In this document: positions 4,318 through 37,077 of the stretch, one piece after another
Position numbering within the stretch: the first letter of the stretch is position 1
Layout: every line of letters begins with the position of its first letter
Source of the DNA: a virus
IMG/VR virus record: IMGVR_UViG_3300043587_000029
Span: 1-38,081 of that record
Strand: one strand, 5' to 3'
DNA length: 38,081 nt
The notes under the pieces: generated by a model
The model's database searches: none
What the model saw: only the letters and a program-made list of their open reading frames with translations
What the model was told of the DNA's origin: nothing
Program-made: the position numbers and the translations under genes

Positions 4318-4932
4318 ATGGTGGACCAGGCCAAGGGCGTTATCGACCGTGCCCTGGCCTTCATCGGCGACAAACCATGGAAAGCCGCGTTCGTTGTTAT
4401 AGCGTTTCTTATATGCGGCAGCGCCTGGGTTTTATATGAGAAGCGCGACGAGATCATCGAAGCGTGGCTGACGCCATCGGCACCGGAACTGCGGAACGAT
4501 CTGATACCAGAGGCACTGGATAAGCTGGTCACCGAAACGAGTGCCGATATGGTACAGATATGGGCGGTCGATCTCGCTTCTAATTCGCAATGGTTTCTCG
4601 CCGCGCGCCGCCAGGATGGCGAGAGGCCGGTGATCCCGCCGCCCCGGCGACTGCCGATCATTGTTCACACCAGCGACGTGCGGGCGCTGATCGACGTGAT
4701 GGAGGGTCACCCGACCTGTGTTGAAATGGAAGCCAGCGGATCGCCGCTGGCGCGGCGACTGCACGACCGGGGGATGAAGCGCGCCTGTGCGATCCCGATC
4801 CCGCCAAACCCAGACAGTTTCGTGGGCGTGATATATATCGCCTGGCTACCTACTAATCTACCCGATCAAAACGCCGAGAAGGTGGCGGTCGGCGCGGCGC
4901 GGGAGATCGCCAAGAAGCTGGCGACACACTGA
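4318..4932 (+). CDS. One-TM protein with GAF-like domain; holin candidate
   Basis: A 204-residue protein. Residues ~22-40 (AAFVVIAFLICGSAWVLY) form one membrane segment, followed by a charged stretch and a ~140-residue soluble domain. The soluble part (MVQIWAVDL..., then GMKRACAIPIPP... and VGVIYIAWL) has the strand order of a GAF-like sensory fold, but I cannot confirm this by eye. The gene starts 2 nt after the endolysin stop and precedes another wall hydrolase. Position and topology make it a candidate holin or lysis regulator; a soluble domain this large is unusual for a holin. Confidence 0.6.
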   Translation: MVDQAKGVIDRALAFIGDKPWKAAFVVIAFLICGSAWVLYEKRDEIIEAWLTPSAPELRNDLIPEALDKLVTETSADMVQIWAVDLASNSQWFLAARRQDGERPVIPPPRRLPIIVHTSDVRALIDVMEGHPTCVEMEASGSPLARRLHDRGMKRACAIPIPPNPDSFVGVIYIAWLPTNLPDQNAEKVAVGAAREIAKKLATH

Positions 4933-17898: not shown

Positions 17899-18720
17899 AT
17901 GAGGAGAGTTGATCCTGGGCGGTCGCACCGTACGCCCATCAAGCATGGCATCCTCGACAAGACGCTCGGCAAGATCGCCGGGGTGATGTCCACGGGGAAC
18001 AGCACGGTACCCGCCATCCTTCCGCTGCATGTCATCGACATGTGCGCCGGGGACGGGGTCAGCGAACCGGGTCAGACCAGTAGTCCGGAGATCATCCTGA
18101 AGCACATCAATTTCGCTCGACTGCATGGCCGTGCGCGGGCCACGTTTTACGAGGGCCAGCCGAACACCTTCGACCGGCTGCGCGAGAGTGTCGCGACCAT
18201 CGTGGAAACCAATGGATACAGGACCAACAATTTCGAACTGATTTATGGCGACTCCCGCGATCTCCGGATCAGCCGCGCCATCATTGGTCAGGCGATATAC
18301 GCGCACATCGATCCCAACAGCATGACGACGTGGCCGGTGACCCCATGGGTGTCCGATACGTTCACACCGACGACGACATTTCTCGCCACGCTTGGTTGCA
18401 ACGTCAACGGGATCAAGCGGCTCGGCTTCGCCTCGCATCGCCAGGAATGGTATCAGCACATGAAACATTTGTTGCGTGTGCCGGAACATCACGACGTGCA
18501 TCTTTACATTCTGAACCGGGACGATTCGCAGTGGGCCTATCTGCTGCGTATCCCAAGGAAATGGTCCGTCGAGACAGCCGACGACATCTGCAAATACGGT
18601 GCCCGTCACTGGCCGAACGGATTACGATACGCCAGCGCGTATGCTGATTCCGACAGGTTTCAGACCTACGTCGATGAATTGTTCCAAACCAAAAAGGAAC
18701 GCCGCGATGGCTTCGCCTGA
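17899..18720 (+). CDS. Methyltransferase-like protein, TcmP-like partner of DUF5131
   Basis: A 273-residue protein. It has Rossmann-type landmarks: PLHVIDMCAGDGVS (motif I-like, ~residues 43-56), TFYEGQP (acidic residue after strand 2), LIYGDSRDL and YAHIDPNS. The three-Cys-motif partner family (TcmP) has this layout and is known to sit next to Gp37/Gp68 (DUF5131) genes, exactly the neighbour here. Substrate is unknown. Start chosen at 17899 as the first Met; a strong ribosome site is not obvious. It overlaps the next gene by 14 nt. The TcmP link is context-based and not certain. Confidence 0.6.
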   Translation: MRRVDPGRSHRTPIKHGILDKTLGKIAGVMSTGNSTVPAILPLHVIDMCAGDGVSEPGQTSSPEIILKHINFARLHGRARATFYEGQPNTFDRLRESVATIVETNGYRTNNFELIYGDSRDLRISRAIIGQAIYAHIDPNSMTTWPVTPWVSDTFTPTTTFLATLGCNVNGIKRLGFASHRQEWYQHMKHLLRVPEHHDVHLYILNRDDSQWAYLLRIPRKWSVETADDICKYGARHWPNGLRYASAYADSDRFQTYVDELFQTKKERRDGFA

Positions 18721-20197
18721 ACCCAAGCAGCCTGAACTCGCCGACATCCTGCATCACTATCCCGAGATAACCGGCATTCATCCGGCGGCTGACATCTTTC
18801 CGATGATGCAGCCGGATGAACTGTTGTCCCTCGTCGCCAACATCAAGGCGCAGGGACTGGCGAACGATGTCGTGTTGACCAAGGACGGCTTACTGATCGA
18901 TGGCCGCAATCGCGTTCTCGGTTGTTATCTGGCGGAACAGGAGATCCGCTTCCGCCGCGTCGATCCGACCGATCCCATCGGTTGGGCGTGGTCGCAGAAT
19001 GGCGAGCGTCGGAACCTGAACTCGGGGCAAAAGGCCTGGGTTGGAAATCGGATGCGTGGGCTTTACGAAGATGAAGCTAAAAAGCGCCAGGGAACCCGTA
19101 CCGACCTAAAAGGAAACGTCGTTCCATTCGGCGGTAAAGATAACTTTGAGGCATTAATGCCTCAAAGTTCAGAACAAAAAAGAGAGCCACAAGCACGAGA
19201 TAAAGCTGGAGCCGCGGTTGGGGTTGGCGGCAGATATCTTGATATGGCGCGTGATGTCGAGCGGTTCGCCGCTCCAGAGGTCGCGAAACAAGTTCAGGAT
19301 GGATCGTTGTCTTTAACAAAAGCACACGCCGATGTGCGTCCACTGATCAAGGCGGCGAAGGAAGAGAAGGCGGCGGCGGAACCAGCGAAGGAACGGAGCC
19401 AAAGCCCGGTCGTCACGCCTGATGGCGAGGTGAAGCTGGTGCCGACGCCAGCGAAGACGACGTTCAATGCGACCAACGCTAATGTCGAATGGGCCTCGTG
19501 GACATGGAACCCGGTGACGGGATGTTTGCATGGCTGCGAGTTTTGTTACGCTCGCGCGATTGTTCACAACGAACAGATGGCGCCGAACTATCCGTTCGCG
19601 TTCGAACCGGCGTTCTACGAGCATCGGCTGGCGGCACCGGTCAACACGAAACGACCGGCGTCGGCGGATGAACCTGGGCACGAGCCGGATGGCCGGGTGT
19701 TTGTCGGATCGATGGCGGATCTGTTTGGCAAGTGGGTGCCGGATGCCTGGATCAAGGCGGTGTTCAAGGCGTGCATGGCGGCATCGGAATGGGAATACCT
19801 GTTCCTCACCAAGTGGCCGAAACGCTACTCGCTGTTGGCCTCTCTGCCGCACGCCTGGTTCGGCGCGTCGGTGATCCAGCAATCCGACGTGAAACGGATC
19901 GAGAGTAATATGAAAAGCTTCTCGACCAGCGGCGTGAAGTGGGTGTCGCTGGAGCCGATGCTGGAGCCGATCCGTTTCAACGACCTGTCGTGGTGCGATC
20001 TGGTGGTGATCGGCGGGCAAACCGGTACGCGTCAGCCGACCGGGTATGTCGGTGCGTTCGCGCCCAACTTCGACTGGGTCGTGGATGTGGTGAACCAGTG
20101 CCGTGAAGCCGGTGTGCCGTATTACCTGAAGCCGAACCTGATGGGCACGGCTCCTGGCATGGTGCTGCCAAAGGGAACGCCGAGGCGCGTCGCGTGA
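18707..20197 (+). CDS. ParB-like domain fused to DUF5131 (Gp37/Gp68) three-Cys protein
   Basis: A 496-residue fusion. Residues ~24-115 are a ParB/Srx-like N-terminal domain (IHPAADIFPMMQPDELLSLV, LIDGRNRVLGCYLAE). Residues ~160-215 resemble the ParB/KorB helix-turn-helix (ARDKAGAAVGVGGRYLDMAR). After a charged linker, residues ~258-496 are DUF5131: WNPVTGCLHGCEFCYARA (Cys273, Cys277, Cys280, a CxxxCxxC arrangement as in radical-SAM enzymes), GSMADLFGKW, FLTKWPKRY, WVSLEPMLEPI, VIGGQTG and PYYLKPN. DUF5131 activity is unknown; an Fe-S/SAM chemistry is suggested by the Cys motif. A 28-bp palindrome lies in the linker before the HTH part. AAGGA precedes the ATG. Confidence 0.87.
   Translation: MASPEPKQPELADILHHYPEITGIHPAADIFPMMQPDELLSLVANIKAQGLANDVVLTKDGLLIDGRNRVLGCYLAEQEIRFRRVDPTDPIGWAWSQNGERRNLNSGQKAWVGNRMRGLYEDEAKKRQGTRTDLKGNVVPFGGKDNFEALMPQSSEQKREPQARDKAGAAVGVGGRYLDMARDVERFAAPEVAKQVQDGSLSLTKAHADVRPLIKAAKEEKAAAEPAKERSQSPVVTPDGEVKLVPTPAKTTFNATNANVEWASWTWNPVTGCLHGCEFCYARAIVHNEQMAPNYPFAFEPAFYEHRLAAPVNTKRPASADEPGHEPDGRVFVGSMADLFGKWVPDAWIKAVFKACMAASEWEYLFLTKWPKRYSLLASLPHAWFGASVIQQSDVKRIESNMKSFSTSGVKWVSLEPMLEPIRFNDLSWCDLVVIGGQTGTRQPTGYVGAFAPNFDWVVDVVNQCREAGVPYYLKPNLMGTAPGMVLPKGTPRRVA
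19142..19169. repeat. 28-bp perfect palindrome inside coding sequence
   Basis: Two 14-nt arms, AACTTTGAGGCATT and its exact reverse complement, meet with no spacer. It lies in an unusually A/T-rich stretch of the ParB-DUF5131 gene and encodes NFEALMPQS. It could be a binding site for the encoded protein, an RNA hairpin or the relic of an insertion. Confidence 0.9.
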
Positions 20198-23724: not shown

Positions 23725-23912
23725 TGGTCTGGGTTGTCGAAAAGCTTACCACAATGAAGTGAAAATGGGTGCTTCCGGATGATAAAGTATTGATCTTAAA
23801 ACAGCATCCCAAGAAACGAGACGAGACGATTATGTATTCCCGTAAATCGGTGGACTCCTACAATGGATAACGCGGCGGGATAGACGCCGCATCATCCATG
23901 GGAGACTTCACC
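23725..23912 (+). promoter_or_regulatory. Upstream region of the PEP-CTERM pair
   Basis: AT-richer 188-bp gap, the likely place of a separate promoter for the cargo genes, although no clear -35/-10 pair stands out. It contains a 12-codon frame (23832-23870, MYSRKSVDSYNG) followed directly by a GCGGCG/CGCCGC hairpin (23872-23890), an arrangement reminiscent of a leader peptide with an attenuator. There is no T-run after the hairpin. Confidence 0.35.
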
Positions 23913-24644
23913 TTGAAGAAATTACTCTACGCGGCCACGGCCTTGAGCGCCATGGCATTCGCTGGAGGAGCGAACGCGACGCTCCAGATCAGCGCCAACG
24001 TCAACGGCTCGCTGTTCGCCTGTGCCGATCAGCAGGTAAGCTGCGACACCAATCTGACCCCTGGCATCCTCGCCATCGCCGATCAGTTGATCGGTGGCGT
24101 GCAGTTCCTGGGATCGGCGCAGACCCAGGTCATCGGCGCGACCAACTCGCTCAACACCTCCACCTTCCAGATCAACAACCTGACCGGCGGCACGGTGCCG
24201 ATCACGGTGGCGATCTCGGGCACCGACTTCCAGGGGCCGGTGCTGGCGTTCTCGGCGTCGGGATCGGGCACGTTCCAGACCGCCAATGGGTCCAGCGCCA
24301 CGCTGACGTTCTGGGGTGACGTGCTGAACGATCAGGGGGCCGACACGCCCACCGATCTGCCGGGTGTGTTGCTGGCGACGATGACGGAAGTCGCGTCGGG
24401 CGATACGGATTCGTTCAACCAGGACTTCAATGGCCCGTTCGTTGGCGGTGGGGCTTACTCCATGTCGCTGGGGACCACCGGGTTCTTGACGGCTGGCGGA
24501 TCGCTGGTCGGTCGCTCTCAGGCCATCGTCACCCGTGAGGATGTTCCGGAACCCGCGTCCCTGGCGTTGTTGGGTGCCGGTCTGGTGGGTTTGGGGCTGA
24601 CGCGGCGGAAGCGCCGCGCTAGCTTCGACGGGTGCGCGGCATGA
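23913..24644 (+). CDS. PEP-CTERM exported protein
   Basis: A 243-residue secreted protein. It starts with a signal peptide (MKKLLYAATALSAMAFAGGA, cleavage near ANA) and ends with a PEP-CTERM sorting signal: VPEPASLALLGAGLVGLG then TRRKRR. Such tails direct proteins to exosortase (EpsH-type) processing in Gram-negatives that make extracellular polysaccharide. The mature region is Thr/Gly/Ser-rich and beta-like with two Cys near residue 27-35. I prefer the TTG at 23913, which has GGGAGA 8 nt upstream, over the ATG at 23898. PEP-CTERM cargo is unexpected in a phage. Confidence 0.82.
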   Translation: MKKLLYAATALSAMAFAGGANATLQISANVNGSLFACADQQVSCDTNLTPGILAIADQLIGGVQFLGSAQTQVIGATNSLNTSTFQINNLTGGTVPITVAISGTDFQGPVLAFSASGSGTFQTANGSSATLTFWGDVLNDQGADTPTDLPGVLLATMTEVASGDTDSFNQDFNGPFVGGGAYSMSLGTTGFLTAGGSLVGRSQAIVTREDVPEPASLALLGAGLVGLGLTRRKRRASFDGCAA

Positions 24645-25405
24645 AGGGTTCTATCCTCCTCGCCGCGTCTGTCGGGATCGCCGTGTTCGCTAACATGGCG
24701 ATCCCGGCTCCGGTTCAGGCGGCGCTGACGGTCACGACACTGGCCAACCCGGTGCCGCAATCCCTTAGCGCGCCGTGCATCATCTGCGGCACCAACGCCG
24801 GAAGCCAGCCGTCTGGGTTCGGCTATAACGACTTCAGCAACCGGGGGAGCGACGCGGCGTTCAACACGTTTTCCACCAACATCGCCAATGGCGGGCCGTT
24901 GGTGGGCGATCTTGAGGCTAATGCGTTGCCCTACACCGGGGCCTTTCTGGAGGCGTTTTTGAACGCGGGCGGCACCGACCCGTTGTTTAAATTCGGCGTC
25001 GTGATCGACGTGAACACGGCGCAGGGCGGTGAGACGCTGAATTCGTTTCAGCTTCTCGACATCAGCAAGCCCGCCGGTCAGCGGGTGATCTTCGACCTCG
25101 CCGGTCTGCCGCTCGCGTTGCCGGATATCCAGAATGGCAACGGGAAAGGGGACTATTTGATCAGCGGCTTCGATTTGTCACTGGGTTGCCGTGACAGCGG
25201 CCAGTTTGTCCTGGCCGATTGCGTGATCCAGCCGGGAGACAATCTGCTGTTCCACGCGGCGTGGAGTGGTGCCAGCGACGGCGCGGAAAGCTTCTACCTG
25301 GTCATCGTGCCGACCGCCGACGACGTGCCGGAACCAGCGTCGATGGCGGTGCTTGGCATGGGGCTGGCGGGCCTGGTGGCGGCGCGTCGGCGTCGTCGTG
25401 CCTGA
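24641..25405 (+). CDS. PEP-CTERM exported protein
   Basis: A 254-residue secreted protein translationally coupled to the preceding PEP-CTERM gene (ATGA). Signal peptide MKGSILLAASVGIAVFANMA ends near VQA. The mature part is a probable beta-sandwich (SFQLLDISKPAG, GDYLISGFDLSLGC) with four Cys (ICxxC-like CIIC, and two near residue 180-190). The C-terminus is VPEPASMAVLGMGLAGLVAA followed by RRRRRA, a canonical PEP-CTERM tail. Exosortase substrates usually belong to biofilm/EPS systems; no exosortase is in this window, so the host must supply it. Confidence 0.85.
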   Translation: MKGSILLAASVGIAVFANMAIPAPVQAALTVTTLANPVPQSLSAPCIICGTNAGSQPSGFGYNDFSNRGSDAAFNTFSTNIANGGPLVGDLEANALPYTGAFLEAFLNAGGTDPLFKFGVVIDVNTAQGGETLNSFQLLDISKPAGQRVIFDLAGLPLALPDIQNGNGKGDYLISGFDLSLGCRDSGQFVLADCVIQPGDNLLFHAAWSGASDGAESFYLVIVPTADDVPEPASMAVLGMGLAGLVAARRRRRA

Positions 25406-25485: not shown

Positions 25486-25607
25486 GTTGGCCTGGGCATC
25501 CCCACCCCCGTCCAGGCCAACAGGCGGTGTTTATTAGCATTTCACACCGCCAAGACCCCCAACTGACCCGGCGCTTTTAGCAAAGCGAGCGCCGGGTCTT
25601 TTTTTAG
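25486..25607 (+). terminator. Three consecutive hairpins ending in a rho-independent terminator
   Basis: GTTGGCCTGG/CCAGGCCAAC (25486-25521), GGCGGTGT/ACACCGCC (25523-25551), and GACCCGGCGC/GCGCCGGGTC (25565-25598) followed by a run of T to 25605. Only the last is a classical terminator; the first two may stabilise the mRNA 3' end. The T-run reaches the stop codon of the convergent beta-helix gene. Confidence 0.88.
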
Positions 25608-26767
25608 TTCGACCAGCGGTCGCCTTTGATGACGCCGAGAACGGTGGTGCTGGTGAGTTCGGTGTTCAGGATTTTCAGGGTCCGGTCCATGGTGGCCAGC
25701 TTGACGTGCAGCGGTGCCCAGGCCTGGAAATCGGCGAGAACGTCGGCGTGATATTGTTCAAGCGGCGTGAGGACGGGAGTGGGCGATGGGTCAGGCACTG
25801 ATGGTGGCGTGGCTGGTGGCGGCGGCGGCGGTGCCGCTGGTGGCGGTGGCGACGGTGGTGGTGACGCTCCAAGGAATTGTATCGGAGCCAGGTCCAAGAC
25901 AGGGCGTGCCGCCAGAACCGTGCTACCCGATGGAATCTGGGTCAGCCCGAATACCGTGTTATCGCTAAGGCTGACAGGATGATTGCCAGGGTTAAGTAAG
26001 AGATAACCTGAACCCTGATCATTAACGATTGTGTTGCCGGTAACCGTGGCCCCGGTTTGGTAGCCCGCCGGAATGCCCTCTTCGCCGTATGCCAGGATCG
26101 CGGGGTTCTGGCTGTTCGGGCCTTGCTGGATGACGTTGCCGGTGATGGTGGCGGCACCGCCGTTCGGGAGGTCGATGCTGTAGCTGGCCGATCCGTTGTT
26201 GTCGAAGATCCGGTTGCCGGTGATGACGTTGTTCTGGGCGCGGGATTTGACCTCGTGGCCGACGACGGTGTCGTGGATATAGCTGTTGGTAAGCGTGAAT
26301 TCGCTGACGGGACCAACGTAGATGCCGTGGGTATGTCCGTCGCCGCCGAGGCCGTTTCGGGCGAACTCAGAATTCGTGATGGTAATCGACCCGCTGAGAT
26401 CGGCGGCACCGAGAAGACCCTCCTGGTTGTCGTGGATGAACACATTGTCGAGGGTGAGGTTGCCGCCCTGGTAACGGACGCCAGCGCCATTGGCGTCGGG
26501 CACGGTCACGCCGCTGATGTCGAAGCCCGAGATGGTGACGGTGCCGCTCTCGGTGATGTAGGCCTTGCCATCGGGTGGTTGAGCCTGGTTGGTGACCAGC
26601 TTTACCCAGCCGCCGATGGCGGTGAGGGTCAGGTCGTGGGTGATGTTGAGCCAGTCGTTCGTATAGACACCGGCCTGGACGGTGATGGTGTCGCCGGCGG
26701 ATGAGGCGGCGACGGCGGCGGCTATCGTGGCGTAGGTTTGGTTCGATCCGACCGAGAGGGTGGCCAT
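25604..26767 (-). CDS. Right-handed parallel beta-helix protein
   Basis: A 387-residue protein. It starts MATLSVGSNQTYATIAAAVA, followed by DTITVQAGVYTNDWLNI, the common opening of parallel beta-helix proteins, and then regular coils (ITNSEFARNGLGG, ITGNRIFDNNG, ITGNVIQQGP). A Pro-rich linker (~302-335) leads to a helical C-terminus (EQYHADVLADFQAW). Such folds occur in phage tailspikes and polysaccharide lyases, so it may bind or cut a surface polysaccharide. GGAG lies ~7 nt upstream of the ATG at 26767. No signal peptide is seen. It converges on the PEP-CTERM terminator. Confidence 0.8.
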   Translation of the reverse strand: MATLSVGSNQTYATIAAAVAASSAGDTITVQAGVYTNDWLNITHDLTLTAIGGWVKLVTNQAQPPDGKAYITESGTVTISGFDISGVTVPDANGAGVRYQGGNLTLDNVFIHDNQEGLLGAADLSGSITITNSEFARNGLGGDGHTHGIYVGPVSEFTLTNSYIHDTVVGHEVKSRAQNNVITGNRIFDNNGSASYSIDLPNGGAATITGNVIQQGPNSQNPAILAYGEEGIPAGYQTGATVTGNTIVNDQGSGYLLLNPGNHPVSLSDNTVFGLTQIPSGSTVLAARPVLDLAPIQFLGASPPPSPPPPAAPPPPPPATPPSVPDPSPTPVLTPLEQYHADVLADFQAWAPLHVKLATMDRTLKILNTELTSTTVLGVIKGDRWSN

Positions 26768-26801: not shown

Positions 26802-27329
26802 ATGTCGAAGCTGAGTGATCCACCCGTGGCCGAGATGGCCGAGGCGCTGAAGGCCAAACATGGCATCGAGGTGTTGGTCGAGACGGGCACATACGAAGGG
26901 GATTCGACCCTTTGGGCGGCGGAACGATTCCGCCATGTCTACTCAATCGAGATCGATCCTGACCGGCGGGATCTGGCGATGGAGCATTGCGCCGCGCATT
27001 CGAACATCTCGTTCCTGACCGGCGATACGCGGTTCTGTCTGCCGTTCGTGCTGTCGGCGCTGGAGGAGCCGGTGATGTTCTGGTTGGATGCTCACGCGGC
27101 TCCCGGCCTGTTCGGATCAGCGGACGACTGGCCGGTCATGCATGAACTGGCGGTCATCGAGCAATCACAATTCCATCATGTGATTCTGATCGATGACGCG
27201 CACTGTTTTCTGCCGGGGACGCCGCATCCGGCGTGCCCGCCGCTCGCCGCGGTGGAGAAGTGGGCGCTGGCGTCGGGCTACGACTGCGCGGTCAAGGGCG
27301 ACGTGATCGTGTTAACGCCGGTTGCCTGA
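26802..27329 (+). CDS. Class I SAM-dependent methyltransferase-like protein
   Basis: A 175-residue protein. Start at 26802 with GGAGGT 6 nt upstream. VLVETGTYEGDSTLWAAERF and VYSIEIDPDRRDLA match the SAM-binding motif I and acidic motif II seen in small FkbM-like or CmcI-like methyltransferases; FWLDAHAAPG and LIDDAHCF are later landmarks. The substrate is unknown but, beside the beta-helix and PEP-CTERM genes, a glycan is plausible. It diverges from the beta-helix gene with a 34-bp gap and overlaps the convergent gene by 18 bp. Confidence 0.72.
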   Translation: MSKLSDPPVAEMAEALKAKHGIEVLVETGTYEGDSTLWAAERFRHVYSIEIDPDRRDLAMEHCAAHSNISFLTGDTRFCLPFVLSALEEPVMFWLDAHAAPGLFGSADDWPVMHELAVIEQSQFHHVILIDDAHCFLPGTPHPACPPLAAVEKWALASGYDCAVKGDVIVLTPVA

Positions 27330-36393: not shown

Positions 36394-37077
36394 TCAATGT
36401 TTGTGGTACGAAACATTCTCAACTGTATGGTCCCAACATGCGCGGCAATCCTGGCACGCGTTCCCCTGTAGGGGAGCGGGGCACGGGCGTCCCTTGGCGG
36501 GGGCGTTCTGATGTACGGTTGACGTGGTAGGCCATGCCTGAGTCGGTGCGCCGTCAACCTTGGTCGCTGACACGCGAATACAAAGGTTGCCTGGCACGAT
36601 GCCGCCACTCTTACGATACGCGGCCAGGATTCCGGCTTCACGAGTCGGCAACCAATGGCGAATCGTTGGCGTGCGCCGCGCAACCTCGCAAATCATTGCC
36701 AGGTGGCGAATCGATTGGACATCGCCCGCATCATGCCAACGGTGCCAACCCGGACTTTTCAACTTACGATGCACGCGCCCGTCGATCAGGCCATGGGCTT
36801 TGAGAATCTGGTAAACCATACCCTCAACCCATTGGGGATTCGCGAGCGATGCCAGGCGAGTCGCCTGACTCTTAATGACGCTCGGATAGGTGTAATTATT
36901 CTTGAGGGCGTAGCAGTTCTCGCATGTGGTCCCCGCGATCTGCGCCAACTTGGCGCCCAAGATGCAAGCGAAAGCGGGAATGCCATAGGACGTGCCAGGC
37001 ATCTTGCTAGGGAAGCCTAGCGTTCCGCACGCGCATCGTGCGGCTTTTAGGGTCTTGATATCGGCGATGGCCAACAT
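36394..37077 (-). CDS. GP88-like phage protein with CxxCYA motif
   Basis: A 227-residue protein. KMPGTSYGIPAFACILGAKL, then TTCENCYALKNNYTYPSVIK (Cys52, Cys55) and GWHRWHDAGDVQSIRHLAMI match the phage 'gene product 88' family layout (SY-x-IPA, CxxCYA, R-x-HD-GD). A second cluster near the C-terminus (NACQDCRACWD) may bind metal. The family has unknown activity; the CxxCYA motif also occurs in DUF5131, encoded at 18.7-20.2 kb, hinting at related chemistry. GAGGGAAACCC with a 5-nt spacer precedes the ATG. Confidence 0.78.
   Translation of the reverse strand: MLAIADIKTLKAARCACGTLGFPSKMPGTSYGIPAFACILGAKLAQIAGTTCENCYALKNNYTYPSVIKSQATRLASLANPQWVEGMVYQILKAHGLIDGRVHRKLKSPGWHRWHDAGDVQSIRHLAMICEVARRTPTIRHWLPTREAGILAAYRKSGGIVPGNLCIRVSATKVDGAPTQAWPTTSTVHQNAPAKGRPCPAPLQGNACQDCRACWDHTVENVSYHKH

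Follow-up and report, generated by a model that had tools for sequence, protein, structure and literature searches.

Ectodomain exchange between constant PEP-CTERM sorting tails in a phage-encoded gene pair

A coupled pair of PEP-CTERM genes in a tailed-phage genome

The window, i.e., the whole stretch of DNA analysed here, is a viral record that spans 38,081 bases, is classed as linear, and originates from an uncultivated sample. It encodes an endolysin, a Sak4-like protein, a Dda-like helicase, a primase, a second helicase, and a C5 methyltransferase. Our analysis focused on two overlapping genes, designated A and B, and on the two genes that follow them:

23913..24644 (+): gene A, PEP-CTERM protein with an ectodomain of family II; PF07589 30.1 bits, TTG start, dN/dS 0.06-0.33
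23913..23978 (+): signal-peptide-like N-terminus of A, MKKLLYAATALSAMAFAGGANA; from the sequence and its conservation in alignments
23979..24539 (+): ectodomain of A, the exchangeable part; 19% identity in L006 versus 91% for the tail, all-beta model
24540..24608 (+): PEP-CTERM sorting signal of A, consisting of VPEPAS, a hydrophobic stretch, and RRKRR; PF07589 E 1.2e-9
24641..24644 (+): ATGA stop/start overlap of A and B; kept in 7/7 pairs
24641..25405 (+): gene B, PEP-CTERM protein with an ectodomain of family III; PF07589 31.8 bits, family III dN/dS 0.04-0.18
24641..24721 (+): signal-peptide-like N-terminus of B; from the sequence, swapped along with the ectodomain in L003, L004, and L005
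24722..25321 (+): ectodomain of B, the exchangeable part; 14-24% identity in L003/L004/L005 versus 74-81% for the tail
25322..25393 (+): PEP-CTERM sorting signal of B; PF07589 E 3.8e-10
25565..25605 (+): GC-rich hairpin followed by seven T, a likely terminator between B and the beta-helix gene; read directly from the sequence
25604..26767 (-): right-handed beta-helix protein, associated gene; PF13229 71.6 bits (cut-off 25.9), start MATLSVG
26802..27329 (+): small methyltransferase-like protein, neighbour; Pfam methyltransferase matches weak and below cut-off

The initial annotation had assigned both proteins to the PEP-CTERM type. This assignment was confirmed with two profiles whose curated cut-offs both proteins passed, namely PF07589 (30.1 bits for A and 31.8 bits for B, cut-off 20.7) and TIGR02595 (27.6 and 22.3 bits, cut-off 16). 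A PF07589 search of the whole record returned exactly these two sites, and the same search of 14 control genomes returned none. Beyond the tag, no Pfam or NCBIfam family scored above cut-off in either protein. Judged by eye and by conservation in relatives, the N-termini show a signal-peptide-like pattern of K/R, a hydrophobic stretch, and AxA. For the ectodomain of A, an AlphaFold2 model with a pLDDT of 92 was all-beta. Fold searches with this model gave weak beta-sandwich matches only (CBM61, CBM6, CBM22, and viral fibre domains), and because all of them stayed below a TM-score of 0.5, the fold was left without a name. The structure model of B was of too poor a quality to be used.

The start of A at 23913 is supported by the start codon that occupies this position (TTG in the window; TTG, GTG, or ATG in relatives) and by a preceding purine-rich, Shine-Dalgarno-like stretch; the first start reported by the ORF caller was an in-frame ATG at 23898. 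Gene B starts with the ATG at 24641 within the stop codon of A, and an in-frame GTG lies upstream at 24632. The ATGA overlap was found in all seven A/B pairs compared, in agreement with the coupling noted initially.

Viral-contig scans with A and with B yielded nine records, mostly from separate metagenomes. Seven of the ten records (window counted) contain two PEP-CTERM sites, in adjacent genes of unchanged order, and the replication, methyltransferase, and beta-helix genes in the flanks are syntenic in close relatives. Since contigs from independent metagenomes keep the pair in the same order and share its junctions, a chimeric assembly, against which the initial annotation had advised a check, is ruled out. 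The window had also been read correctly as a phage genome. One relative (G004, 72 kb) carries genes for a terminase, an HK97-type portal, a head protease, a major head protein, and a tape measure protein, from which we conclude that the phage of the window is a tailed phage. A search for tyrosine integrases (PF00589) was positive in 2 of 20 related records and negative in the close relatives of the window, a count limited by possibly incomplete records. With 18 of the 20 records lacking a tyrosine integrase, lysogenic conversion is unlikely, and a moron gene of a temperate phage is not favoured on the same count. A and B thus probably act during the lytic cycle rather than as prophage conversion genes.

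Exchange and distribution of the ectodomains

Comparison of the related records revealed that the three parts of each protein diverge to very different degrees. In slot A, the window and L006 are 62% identical in the signal peptide, 19% in the ectodomain, and 91% in the tail; the B ectodomain of L006, which lies beside this unrelated A ectodomain, is 97% identical to that of the window. In slot B, the ectodomains of L003, L004, and L005 are 24, 18, and 14% identical to the window, respectively, versus 81, 74, and 77% for the tails. L003 and L004 share one different head and L005 has another. At the DNA level, an identity of ~90% drops to background after the A signal peptide or at the B start and is regained at the PEP motif. 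The alternative head that L006 carries in slot A recurs in L020, where it follows another signal peptide, and in L122. Within an ectodomain type, dN/dS values of 0.04-0.33 indicate purifying selection. On these alignments, the heads are swapped as units while the PEP-CTERM tail is kept, and the pair is a cassette locus. Because the tag is kept and the exposed head is exchanged, the head appears to be what selection changes. This exchange of ectodomains between constant sorting tails, as read from the alignments, is the new element of the present analysis, and we regard it as the part most worth following up.

The PEP-CTERM proteins gathered from viral contigs, a collection partly baited with the PEP-CTERM tag itself, number 124 when identical copies are counted once, and 73 of them belong to three ectodomain families. 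Family I has 41 members, family II, to which A of the window belongs, has 20, and family III, that of B, has 12. A degenerate VPEPA(S/T)-type pattern matched at least 119 stretches in viral contigs. Some of the PEP-CTERM contigs carry a podovirus-type portal gene (phrog_156) together with major head genes, and others a baseplate wedge or a terminase gene, indicating that several types of tailed phages share the trait. The database search for relatives suggested in the initial annotation was successful for viral contigs, and tblastn searches with A and B gave no match among the cultured phages of INPHARED or the plasmids of PLSDB.

In bacteria, the three families are rare. Family III had no relative in a first scan of bacterial genome contigs and was found in none of 398 Pseudomonadota. 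A second scan of bacterial contigs with family II gave almost only tail matches, located in Acetobacterales, Massilia, Competibacteraceae, and others. The family II ectodomain was absent from 289 Alphaproteobacteria, 37 of which have PEP-CTERM proteins. Within the family of Elioraea, 2 of 299 genomes contain it, one with a weak match and the other, G916, with five matches. Where the surroundings of these copies were read, the neighbours looked ordinary, with no evident phage genes. Family I occurred in 3 of the 299 genomes, with ten copies in G916 and nine in G946. The ~10 dispersed copies of a PEP-CTERM-like family in each of these two genomes (L340-L357, L215-L218) represent a lineage-specific expansion of exosortase-type cargo.

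Exosortase, tag variants, and the beta-helix neighbour

None of the ten viral records contains an exosortase (PF09721). Processing of A and B would therefore have to rely on the host, the phage carrying substrates and not a complete PEP-CTERM/exosortase system. Of the ten bacterial genomes whose tails are most similar, nine have an exosortase. The ectodomain families are not bound to one tag variant. Most phage copies of the ectodomain families carry VPEP tags, and a family III head in one phage contig (L134:9899-10669) is followed by VPIPPA, another (L135:9995-10705) by a PEPxxWA-like tag that scores 29.6 bits and does not reach the cut-off of 35. The bacterial family I copies read in G916 and G946 have the variant VPAPAGL in place of VPEPA. 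A tag that has to fit the local sorting enzyme would give such different tags on the same ectodomain families, and we infer a fit of this kind. The family I and II copies in the family of Elioraea, together with the tail matches, point with moderate confidence to an Acetobacterales-like host.

Of the two neighbours highlighted in the initial annotation, only the beta-helix gene proved to be linked to the pair. It is a clear member (71.6 bits) of the PF13229 right-handed beta-helix proteins, which occur in phages and in exosortase/EPS loci. Its open reading frame opens at 26890, and the start MATLSVG is conserved in the family alignment. In the window, the gene is convergent with A and B and lies outside their operon. 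The small methyltransferase was found only in the closest relatives (L003, L004, and L006), is for this reason probably not part of the module, and was rejected as a member.

A viral-contig scan with the beta-helix family alone, which was not baited with the tag, identified 80 loci. A PEP-CTERM gene was present in the flank of 49 of the 79 loci examined and of 36 of the 46 loci with at least 2.5 kb on both sides, counts that are not fully independent because some loci represent near-identical phages. Ten well-flanked loci have no PEP-CTERM gene nearby. The distance between the two genes is usually a few hundred bases, with 40 pairs on the same strand and 9 on opposite strands. A primase-based scan, many loci of which were short, gave flanking PEP-CTERM genes only in three already known loci and in L008, where the tail is degenerate. 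In three podovirus-type contigs (L243:5001-6149, L245:5001-6089, and L255:5001-6089), the beta-helix gene lies between portal/scaffold-like genes and the major head protein gene, and the available flanks contain no PEP-CTERM gene.

A similar association was observed in bacteria. A strong beta-helix match (E <1e-30) was obtained in 20 of the 289 alphaproteobacterial genomes; 16 of these also have PEP-CTERM proteins, compared with 37 genomes in the entire set (Fisher p 6e-13, without correction for phylogeny). In G020 (L330, G020:C23, 1618-9239), the gene order is prsR, prsT, an opposite-strand gene, and beta-helix, where the PEP-CTERM-box response regulator PrsR scores 713 bits and PrsT of the XrtA system 811 bits, each well beyond its cut-off. 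Co-occurrence and locus tie the neighbour gene to the exosortase/EPS world, and by these sequence criteria the beta-helix family seems to belong, so far unrecognised, to an XrtA/PEP-CTERM EPS locus.

Possible role of the pair in infected cells

Knowledge of exosortase-dependent sorting goes back to 2006 and comes mostly from the comparison of genomes; a function has been assigned to very few of the substrates. A and B resemble the substrates of the PEP-CTERM/exosortase (EpsH/XrtA) system (Haft et al., 2006; PMC1569441) in their signal-peptide-like N-terminus, in a long ectodomain without known homology, in a C-terminus composed of PEP motif, hydrophobic stretch, and Arg cluster, and in occurring several per genome. 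Unlike these, they are phage-encoded without an exosortase and form a coupled pair whose ectodomains are swapped between constant tails. That paper contains no mention of phage, and the PEP-CTERM passages in another study (PMC12642866) concern host genes. The literature that combines PEP-CTERM with phage gave, in titles and abstracts, no pointer to a phage-encoded PEP-CTERM protein, and no paper came up that brings PEP-CTERM together with viral genomes or with auxiliary metabolic genes. Within these searches, which covered few subscription papers or preprints, a previous account of the present finding did not emerge.

Our data suggest that phages make use of the host exosortase to cover the infected cell or to alter its surface. 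The reading we favour, and consider fairly probable, is that A and B, once sorted by an exosortase, form a coat on the infected cell and reorganise its exopolysaccharide (EPS). As phage-encoded substrates of the host exosortase, they would be synthesised during infection from translationally coupled genes and taken across the inner membrane by their signal peptides. The PEP/membrane/Arg tail would hold them there, and the host exosortase (XrtA/EpsH) would cleave them and direct them to the cell surface or the EPS. The phage would keep the sorting tag and swap the exposed head as a cassette. The most likely job of the pair would be to coat the cell and rearrange the EPS together with the beta-helix protein of the adjoining gene; possible benefits are binding of loose EPS to the cell, hiding of receptors from rival phages, or easier release of progeny. 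The cargo role proposed in the initial annotation is partly supported and appears right in kind. From the tag, the coupling, the cassette exchange, the purifying selection, the lack of a phage exosortase, and the beta-helix linkage, all read from the DNA, we infer export, cleavage by the host exosortase, surface location, and an effect on EPS.

The best experimental support for EPS remodelling comes, by analogy, from PepA of Aquincola and Zoogloea (PMC9850573; NF033554), a bacterial protein with the same type of tag whose addition alone suffices to shift the EPS. Its overexpression converted EPS from the soluble to the bound form and restored flocs in an rpoN1 mutant (PMC9850573). PepA is chromosomal, and the proteins of the window resemble it only in the tail region (34 and 24 bits versus a cut-off of 80). 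The fold matches of A, which include carbohydrate-binding modules, are weak (TM-score <0.5) and the model of B is poor, so that EPS binding by these proteins is a presumption.

The main rival to EPS remodelling is superinfection exclusion, in which the displayed heads would mask or block receptors during infection, the head swaps would reflect an arms race among co-infecting phages, and any change in EPS would be a side effect. Swapped exposed parts on a constant anchor fit this idea, as does the recurrence of the module in different phage types, which is expected for a trait in phage-phage competition. The surface-exposed phage lipoprotein Ltp is reported to act in this way in Streptococcus thermophilus phages (PMC3952083). 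Ltp shares with A and B the proposed role of a phage gene product on the host surface. It is, however, a lipoprotein of temperate phages with Gram-positive hosts, whereas A and B would use the exosortase route and most of their records lack an integrase. For such mostly virulent-looking phages, exclusion is known but less common, and a receptor role has to be presumed; we consider this explanation rather unlikely.

The constant tail also invites the idea of a decoy, i.e., that the phage proteins flood the host exosortase, leave host PEP-CTERM proteins undelivered, and thereby loosen the EPS matrix. The tail is the most conserved part across the swapped proteins, and the exosortase is not encoded. 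For this purpose, however, the tail alone would do, yet the ectodomains are full length, under purifying selection, and members of recurrent families, which makes a decoy quite improbable. It is even harder to credit that A and B are neutral or recently captured host genes without a function in the phage. PEP-CTERM families are common in the likely hosts, and a small number of Acetobacterales genomes contain members of families I and II, but neutral capture is at odds with dN/dS values well below 1, the conserved coupling, the occurrence in >100 viral contigs, and the beta-helix linkage.

Returning to exosortase-sorted proteins acting on the cell surface, one may tentatively go further. A shared pool of exosortase-anchored heads that recombine beside a beta-helix gene in several tailed-phage types could amount to a host-exosortase-dependent surface typing, a possibility to which we give limited credence. 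Each head would bind a particular host EPS or receptor and so set which competitors or matrices the infected cell meets. Phages that have the substrates and not the enzyme, and that keep the tag and change the head, constitute a natural experiment indicating that the tag matters for delivery. Proteins of the A/B type may also serve as compact tools for testing the exosortase tag. If the proposed role is true, the exosortase route would join the ways in which phages alter the surface of infected cells, and virulent phages of environmental bacteria would be linked to the control of floc and biofilm matrix.

An accessory role in lysis, with the pair helping to break the outer envelope late in infection like two-component spanins, is the least credible option, since beta-rich proteins of 250 residues with exchangeable heads are unlike spanins and the endolysin gene lies 20 kb from the pair in the window, even though the pair consists of overlapping genes for secreted-type proteins and, in L007, follows a homologue of the window's endolysin-adjacent gene. 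In L007 (8250-9935), this homologue lies ~300 bp upstream of the PEP-CTERM pair; the gene of the window (4318-4932, phrog_31287) has one apparent membrane stretch. Three further open reading frames were conspicuous. In the window, a ParB-like N-terminal part continues in frame into a phrog_2045 domain of unknown function (18599-20197), and a gene on the minus strand (36394-37077) clearly matches the GP88 family of unknown function (PF17338, 74.8 bits). In the tail region of the 72-kb relative G004, one open reading frame alone spans 3,657 residues (L220:2262-13235, minus strand).
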